A stretch of 64,000 nucleotides of DNA from Albifimbria verrucaria. Its lineage: Eukaryota; Ascomycota; Sordariomycetes; Hypocreales; Stachybotryaceae. The stretch is from assembly GCA_020081605.1 (NCBI GenBank), contig JAHREC010000023.1, forward strand, positions 186,001 through 250,000, in the 5' to 3' direction. The position numbers were made by a program, and so were the translations under genes. The notes under the pieces were generated by a model. It was not told the DNA's origin. It made no database searches and saw only the letters and a program-made list of their open reading frames with translations. Below are positions 29,247-29,811 of this stretch, in pieces; the stretch's first letter is position 1; the number at the start of each line of letters is the position of its first letter.

Positions 29247-29811
29247 TCATCTCGATCTGAAAGACCTAGGAGAGCCAGTTGTTGTATGTTGTTGTTCTCC
29301 TCGAAGGCGACGAGCAAGTTGTATGTCTTTGCTCTGTATAGTGACTCTTTTAGCATGAATGGCGGCAAGATTTGTATCTTCAAAAAGTCCAACAAGGTAT
29401 GACTCGACAGATTCCTGAAGGGACCCTATTGCAGACGACTGAAAGCGTAGGTCGCTCTTAAAGTCACGAGCGATTTCGCGAACCTTCCATGAGAGTTTAC
29501 GTATAAGCCCTGCTCCATTCACAATGTGGAGAGTAAAAACTTACAAGCCGCTGGAATGGGAGCTTGCGTATCAAAAGCTCAGTAGACCTCTGGTAACGAC
29601 GAATCTCGCGAAGAGCCACCGTACCTGGTTTATATCGCCTAGCCTTCTTCACGGGCCAATTTTTATTGCGAGCTGAGAAACAGAGTGTATATCAGCAGAT
29701 GTTAGGTGGCTTTGAGGATTATGGGAGATATTTACGAGCTTTAGAAGCTAGTCGTTTGCGTGGAGCTTTGCCGCCGGCACTTTTTCGAGCAGTTTGCTTT
29801 GTGCGAGCCAT
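29247..29811 (-). CDS. Divergent histone H3 variant
   Basis: Three exons: 29811-29736, 29672-29545 and 29483-29247. The introns are 63 bp (29673-29735, donor GTAAAT) and 61 bp (29484-29544, donor GTAAGT), and all joins are in phase. The 146-residue product is unmistakably histone H3: [10 protein letters not shown] at the start, [16 protein letters not shown], the histone fold ([10 protein letters not shown], then [14 protein letters not shown]) and [18 protein letters not shown]. It differs from canonical H3 by T11A and Q19R. The segment around K27-S28 is replaced by PRNKNWP with a three-residue deletion before VKK, NLCAIH reads NLAAIH, and a 14-residue Ser/Arg-rich tail follows RRLRGE. K4, K9, S10, K14, K18, K23 and K36 remain. 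It would assemble with H4 in nucleosomes; whether it is deposited or expressed is unknown. Two MITE-like elements flank it. Confidence 0.9.

Follow-up and report, generated by a model that had tools for sequence, protein, structure and literature searches.

An apparently still-coding, divergent histone H3 variant with a rewritten K27 region on small, probably accessory, contigs of Albifimbria verrucaria

Several small and probably accessory contigs of Albifimbria verrucaria carry a gene for a divergent histone H3, here called H3v-A, which appears to be still coding and in which the residues around K27 and S28 are rewritten. The gene lies in the window, the whole 64,000-nucleotide stretch analyzed here, which corresponds to positions 186001-250000 of contig C19 (266,764 bases) in a genome of 48.4 Mb and 41 contigs. 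We propose, with a probability of roughly 0.4, that H3v-A is an H3 variant of these contigs whose nucleosomes are free of H3K27me3, aiding the persistence, expression, or transfer of the DNA that encodes it. The persistence of fungal accessory chromosomes and their movement from strain to strain is an open question, with H3K27me3 tied to their instability in Zymoseptoria, and the occurrence of H3v-A on accessory-type contigs, with its K27 site rewritten and with KMT6-type genes and cyclins alongside, makes the question directly testable. The gene is composed of the following parts:

H3v-A gene: 29811-29247, minus strand, three exons and two introns, 146-amino-acid product
Exon 1: 29736..29811, minus strand, start codon at 29811; residues 1-24, with tail lysines K4-K23
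Intron 1: 29673..29735, minus strand, 63 nt, GTAAAT...CAG, containing CTAAC, which resembles a branch point; phase 1 after residue 24
Exon 2: 29545..29672, minus strand, the PRNKNWP stretch, K36-K37, and the start of the histone fold
Intron 2: 29484..29544, minus strand, 61 nt, phase 0 before VREIA, GTAAGT...AAG
Exon 3: 29247..29483, minus strand, the remaining histone fold and the C-terminal extension; stop codon at 29249-29247

Both introns have GT/AG ends and lie at the positions of the canonical H3 introns in the same genome; the first-pass annotation had described a three-intron gene, and two introns, in phases 1 and 0, were found instead. The predicted protein has the H3-type fold helices, the C-terminal LARRLRGE, and an N-terminal H3 tail that is identical to canonical H3 from A1 to S10, the first tail change being T11A. 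Lysines K4, K9, K14, K18, K23, K36, K37, K64, K79, K115, and K122 are kept, the final five being identified by inspection of the sequence. The Pfam Histone profile (PF00125) matches two stretches of the gene (E = 6.8e-21 and 2.9e-9) and the solved histone H3 4kud_A matches residues 1-132 (E = 3.5e-64); together with the gene model and the alignment, these matches confirm the earlier claim of an H3 fold with K4, K9, K14, K18, K23, and K36 preserved.

The most extensive change is in the tail, where ARKSAPSTGG (residues 25-34) of canonical H3 corresponds to PRNKNWP in H3v-A, the 27-34 stretch being three residues shorter overall, bearing out the rewriting and three-residue deletion read from the sequence initially. 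That reading also held that K27 and S28 are removed, which stands only in part. In an alternative alignment, R26-N-K-N-W-P-V35, which is the aligner's own placement, K27 is kept, one residue is inserted, and S31-G34 are deleted. The loss or retention of K27 itself in the predicted protein is thus alignment-dependent, and the ARKSAP context around K27/S28 is gone on both readings. There are 13 aligned replacements (T11A, Q19R, A25P, S28N, A29W, P38A, H39R, K56R, Q76R, A91S, C110A, and two at the C terminus), among which T11A and C110A are the anticipated changes of T11 and the fold cysteine to alanine, and Q19R, P38A, H39R, K56R, Q76R, and A91S had not been listed before. RRLRGE is followed by 15 residues (about 14 extra residues had been predicted) compared with 2 in canonical H3, so that the C terminus is 13 residues longer.

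Canonical H3 is encoded on large contig C13 (C13:1620k), where a probable H4 exon lies about 2 kb away, and the H3 gene has two single-base, frame-breaking gaps in C runs that point to homopolymer errors in the assembly. CenH3 (CENP-A) proteins have a longer loop 1 and a divergent N-terminal tail. H3v-A has no loop 1 insertion and its tail end is canonical; a separate CenH3-like gene (RPQGKDFRWQS) is present on large contig C41, and we reject H3v-A as the CenH3 of this genome. Matches to the H4-type profile PF15511 are on C6, C8, C13, and C41, one of them being the CenH3-like gene, and a profile search of the small contigs found none.

The small contigs carry three H3 families in all. H3v-B, on C31, C34, and C37 (C37:128.6k), matches canonical H3 at 83.5% of residues in the histone fold and retains the RKS/RKSA (K27-S28) motif, which is followed by 71 residues before KKPHRYKPG compared with 7 in canonical H3; this long acidic insertion region, ahead of K36, contains 17 acidic and 6 basic residues. 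On C37 the reading frame of H3v-B is broken. H3v-C is at matching places on four contigs (C12:256.3k, and near 4.4-4.7 kb on C17, C18, and C19) and is apparently decayed, its frame being shifted and its donor site seemingly lost.

Several lines of evidence suggest that the H3v-A coding sequence has been maintained. Over the 129 codons compared with canonical H3 (leaving out canonical codons 66, 67, and 102, at assembly gaps in C runs), amino acid identity is 0.899 and third-position identity is 0.357, and GC3 is 0.38 in H3v-A versus 0.80 in canonical H3. The dN/dS check suggested at the outset gave a dN of 0.09 and no ratio, dS being saturated and without a value (NG86). Codons that differ synonymously number 74, versus 13 amino acid replacements. 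In 2,000 neutral simulations stopped at 13 replacements, synonymously changed codons averaged 4.1 with a maximum of 13, and 1,000 neutral runs continued until third-position identity had fallen to 0.40 preserved at most 29% of residues, never reaching 85%. There are 83 third-position differences. The AT-ward changes C>T and G>A account for 45 of them, but 32 are transversions, and together with two TCC-to-AGY serine codon switches these argue that RIP by itself did not produce the third-position divergence. With synonymous sites close to saturation and 90% of residues preserved, a young pseudogene is unlikely, and a processed or decayed pseudogene is countered by the open frame, the two GT/AG introns, and the five identical coding copies. 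The coding sequence therefore looks long constrained, as judged with this genome's own H3 as the only yardstick; a gene newly acquired from a distant donor and then changing rapidly would leave a similar picture. Between the two possibilities raised initially, a specialized and perhaps selfish nucleosome component or an early pseudogene still in frame, the intact frame and splice sites, the identical copies, and the excess of synonymous change favor the former.

The genome divides into eleven large contigs of 1.4 to 7.3 Mb each, together about 44.4 Mb and treated as core, and thirty small contigs, each under 360 kb and together about 4.0 Mb (the sizes of C8 and C10 were taken from telomere positions). 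Genome searches found at least five copies of H3v-A, on C9, C17, C18, C19, and C37 (150 to 267 kb each), and no match on the eleven large contigs, which supports the initial description of a divergent H3 in accessory-type DNA. The 10 kb around the gene is 99.6-99.98% identical across the five contigs, with 1, 10, 2, and 25 substitutions and 1, 5, 0, and 12 gap positions relative to the window in C9, C17, C18, and C37, respectively. The exons show zero differences among the five copies, which is not significant alone, as about 1-2 would be expected. Beyond the 10 kb covered by the alignment itself, marker spacing is similar, with 24.6-25.0 kb between H3v-A and a divergent cyclin gene on all five contigs and 51.46 kb between H3v-A and the right contig end on C9, C17, C18, and C19. 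These four share the same terminal sequence, which is internal in C37, at 79-80 kb, with C37 running 131 kb further.

The small contigs are likely separate accessory mini-chromosomes, with their number open to assembly effects. Sampled small-contig stretches have a GC content of 0.43-0.50 versus 0.49-0.53 for sampled core stretches, and left telomere repeats are present on the small contigs C9, C11, C12, C14, and C30. No telomere was found at the right ends of the 11 of 30 small contigs in which one was looked for, so the small contigs may instead be arm or terminal portions of larger chromosomes. Comparing the first or last 60 bases by eye, we note identical end sequences within the groups C9/C17/C18/C19, C1/C2, C31/C34, C28/C29/C32, and C7/C27, and these shared ends look cut at common junctions of related regions. 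C17, C18, and C19 have the same left end, and C1 and C2, which have both ends in common, may be one region.

A SET-domain reading frame is located upstream of H3v-A on the same strand:

SET-domain reading frame: 30579..30998, minus strand, present on all five H3v-A contigs

On C37 this frame is interrupted. Among solved proteins its best match is SETD2 (E about 1e-10), followed by ASH1L, SET1/MLL, and NSD, a spread over several classes; its nearest paralogues in the genome are only 32-40% identical. The frame also changes upstream of the SET domain; introns, decay, and assembly errors are all candidate causes, and we do not choose among these because the assembly has single-base gaps in G/C runs. 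KMT6/EZH2-type CXC and SET domains are encoded on the small contigs C1, C2, and C26, as well as on C15, and the C26 frame matches an EZH2-SUZ12 chain (E = 1.2e-38). With a SUZ12 VEFS box encoded on C13, PRC2 components appear to be present in the genome, and K27 methylation would therefore be expected in this fungus from what is known of these families. The only KAT11/Rtt109-type match genome-wide is on C41, a search of the small contigs for such an acetyltransferase finding none. The Pfam JmjC model likewise has no match on the small contigs and matches on large contigs only. A long open reading frame in the window (52628-53950, plus strand) matches JmjC_2 weakly, under the curated cut-off, and is a possible demethylase or hydroxylase.

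The marker at the constant distance from H3v-A is a cyclin gene:

Divergent CCN1-like cyclin: 3837..4865, minus strand, in the window and also on C9, C17, C18, and C37; intact-looking

Three cyclin families are found on small contigs, with amino acid identities of 0.79, 0.63, and 0.45 to the CCN1-like cyclin of C15 and pairwise dN/dS values against that gene of about 0.21-0.24, 0.15-0.19, and 0.16-0.19, which include the core gene's own constraint. Over 215 shared residues, the cyclin linked to H3v-A has 178 identities to the C15 gene versus no more than 174 to any of the 120 homologues listed. Among the names of the 120 homologues listed for the first family, 8 are G1/S-specific, 3 are G2/mitotic-specific B1, and the remainder neither; the G1/S label is likelier but not firm. 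The two further families flank H3v-B (C31:107.7k/117.3k, C34:111.5k/121.1k, and C37:122.5k/132.1k). The best-scoring homologues of the C15 cyclin are a 313-amino-acid fragment (99.7%) and metagenome proteins (89%), followed by proteins of Stachybotrys, Neonectria, and other hypocrealean fungi at about 77-79%, which makes Hypocreales the likely order. In a tree of 31 cyclins from named organisms and two jgi proteins, with midpoint rooting that falls on the long accessory branch, the 99.7% fragment, as a proxy for the C15 cyclin, is nearest the jgi proteins and then Stachybotrys.

The window also contains several other recognizable features, including two MITE-like elements near H3v-A:

MITE-like element: 28773..29036, no strand assigned, 33-nt inverted repeats (88%), downstream of H3v-A
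MITE-like element: 30117..30351, no strand assigned, 27-nt inverted repeats (96%), between the SET frame and H3v-A; relatives dispersed over large and small contigs
Ankyrin-repeat protein: 10247-11623
P450 fragment: 19540-20166
Terpene synthase fragment: 40886-41554
Patatin-like protein, weak match: 43098-43808
DXD glycosyltransferase: 58034-58744

Scanned against Rfam with gathering thresholds, the window gave no match. There is a 126-bp tandem repeat of about three copies at 26693-27100, which can stay in frame as 126 is a multiple of three.

How H3v-A could act is suggested by its conserved and changed parts. It would pair with H4 encoded elsewhere and enter nucleosomes like ordinary H3, which is likely because the fold residues are conserved and the tail end is canonical. 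PRC2 reads the R26-K27-S28-A29-P30 context, and because of this H3v-A nucleosomes may, although we are less sure of this step, stay free of H3K27me3, a tail with PRNKNWP in place of ARKSAPSTGG probably being a poor PRC2 substrate. In other fungi H3K27me3 covers accessory chromosomes. In Zymoseptoria tritici, accessory chromosomes became more stable when H3K27me3 was lost (PMC6510446). The apparent presence of PRC2 components, the predicted poor substrate, and the Zymoseptoria result together suggest that what was selected is the avoidance of Polycomb marking, through which H3v-A might promote the persistence, expression, or transfer of accessory DNA. The KMT6 homologues, SET protein, and cyclins of the small contigs could belong, with H3v-A, to a set of chromatin and cell-cycle tools that these contigs supply for themselves, such that small contigs may influence their own packaging. 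A fuller version, in which accessory mini-chromosomes encode their own PRC2-insensitive H3 that replaces or dilutes ordinary H3, keeps H3K27me3 off, and raises mitotic stability, expression, or horizontal transfer, making a chromosome-level selfish element with the linked cyclins as its cell-cycle arm, is speculative and, we think, quite improbable as a whole.

Some observations run against escape from K27 marking. A lysine is still near position 27 of the predicted H3v-A protein, H3v-B as predicted keeps its K27-S28 motif, and the KMT6-type genes of the small contigs would add K27 methylation. H3v-A would also be made in trans, with no known targeting, and could enter any chromatin. The effect of H3K27me3 differs between fungi: in Fusarium oxysporum, subtelomeric deletions and duplications were observed in kmt6a and ash1 mutants, although no deletions arose on passaging the kmt6a mutant (PMC12774646). 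Being encoded in trans and in several copies, H3v-A might be a general, dosage-dependent or dominant diluter of canonical H3 that lowers K27me3, T11ph, and K56ac genome-wide and changes host expression, or might have a stage-specific chromatin role, escape not being the point. K56R and T11A, which are changed besides the K27 context, are in keeping with this, as is the fact that K56R is not unusual (60 of 219 H3-like matches covering the site), but the lack of copies on the large contigs speaks for a function connected with the small contigs, and we regard general dilution as distinctly unlikely.

It is also conceivable that H3v-A arose as an H3 duplicate and is a neutral passenger of the accessory DNA, still open but without a selected role and heading for decay like H3v-C. 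The apparent decay of H3v-C and the frame break in one of three H3v-B copies are in keeping with this; A91S occurs in none of 209 and A29W in none of 212 H3-like proteins covering those positions, and 924 of 2,000 neutral runs reach 13 replacements without a stop. Those same runs never approached the observed number of synonymous changes, however, and frame and splice sites are intact in five copies, so that we consider a passenger unlikely, if a serious contender. The number of copies is a separate matter, compatible with any of these readings, as the five could represent just one or two regions, containing a real gene, that the assembly resolved along alternative paths, inflating the count of accessory chromosomes. 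The shared contig ends (right in C9/C17/C18/C19, left in C17/C18/C19, and both in C1/C2), the only 1-2 substitutions per 10 kb that separate C9 and C18 from the window, and the homopolymer errors evident in canonical H3 all fit such an artifact, but the 10 and 25 substitutions in C17 and C37, and the extension of C37 past the point where the other copies stop, do not, and it too is somewhat unlikely. Very improbable is the carriage of H3v-A as cargo copied by a DNA transposon, as in Pyrenophora tritici-repentis, where 26 hAT-borne H3L copies set a precedent (PMC3538342), even though two MITE-like elements bracket H3v-A. None of the six inverted-repeat pairs from 26000 to 34500 resembles terminal repeats around the gene: one (I4, 20 nt, 80%) begins inside it, and another that spans it (I6, 15 nt, 87%, arms 28667-28681 and 31643-31657) looks like chance. 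No transposase domain was found in the 20 window open reading frames scanned, out of many more, and the five copies share an aligned 10-kb block with constant spacing to the left (25 kb) and, in four, to the right (51 kb), so that for the present copies an hAT-type transduplicon is largely refuted by block size, spacing, and the repeat scan.

Searches with the whole H3v-A protein (7,991 candidates scored) gave a best 120 dominated by canonical H3, and those with the tail only (residues 17-56) gave 154 matches. A PRNKNWP-type tail was absent from a motif scan of 359 proteins, 120 of which are cyclins and which include the best 120 of the 154 tail matches. A changed K27 context was flagged in 18 of the 138 proteins that fitted the pattern of a crude motif rule, in a set biased toward relatives of the query and with some of the changes small. 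The H3-like proteins of Nemania serpens, Neophaeococcomyces, and Podospora didyma resemble H3v-A in keeping the K4-K9 end with a changed K27 context, but none has the PRNKNWP tail. A Neurospora-type H3 variant, hH3v, was reportedly described by Hays in 2002; a literature search for it found no paper. The rewritten K27 motif, its linkage to divergent cyclins, and its co-occurrence with KMT6-type genes were not met in the literature searched, and no abstract described H3v-A or a cyclin on fungal accessory chromosomes, although subscription papers were mostly outside that coverage and absence is unproven.

Among known systems, canonical H3 of this genome has in common with H3v-A the fold, both intron positions, and the K4, K9, K14, K18, K23, K36, and K37 lysines, and H3v-A differs from it in the rewritten ARKSAPSTGG, in T11A, P38A, H39R, K56R, Q76R, and C110A, and in its longer C terminus. 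Transposon-borne H3L (Pyrenophora) and accessory-encoded histones (Metarhizium) are already known. Like H3v-A, the H3L proteins of P. tritici-repentis are multicopy, near-identical, divergent H3s with a changed tail that are neither H3 nor CenH3 proper, but as described they have tail insertions and ride on a hAT transposon of 2.3-5.6 kb, whereas the duplicated block here is far larger and the tail is near-canonical to K23 (PMC3538342). The accessory KMT6B/C of F. oxysporum f. sp. lycopersici, of which KMT6B is reported to be functional, are accessory-coded chromatin modifiers like the KMT6-type genes here on C1, C2, and C26; they are enzymes, whereas H3v-A is a substrate histone (PMC12774646). 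Closest in setting is the transferred accessory chromosome of Metarhizium (M. robertsii/M. guizhouense; Habig and colleagues), which encodes putative histones and histone-modifying enzymes (PMC10687773), these being given elsewhere as H3 homologues, a methyltransferase, and an acetyltransferase (PMC12774646). Both are hypocrealean, accessory-type DNA in which H3 homologues occur together with histone modifiers, but here there is no KAT11-type acetyltransferase found on the small contigs, and three H3 families, KMT6-type and SET genes, and three CCN1-related cyclin families are distributed over many small contigs. H3v-A is apparently a second hypocrealean case, after Metarhizium, of accessory chromosomes encoding histones, which would suggest a recurring strategy.
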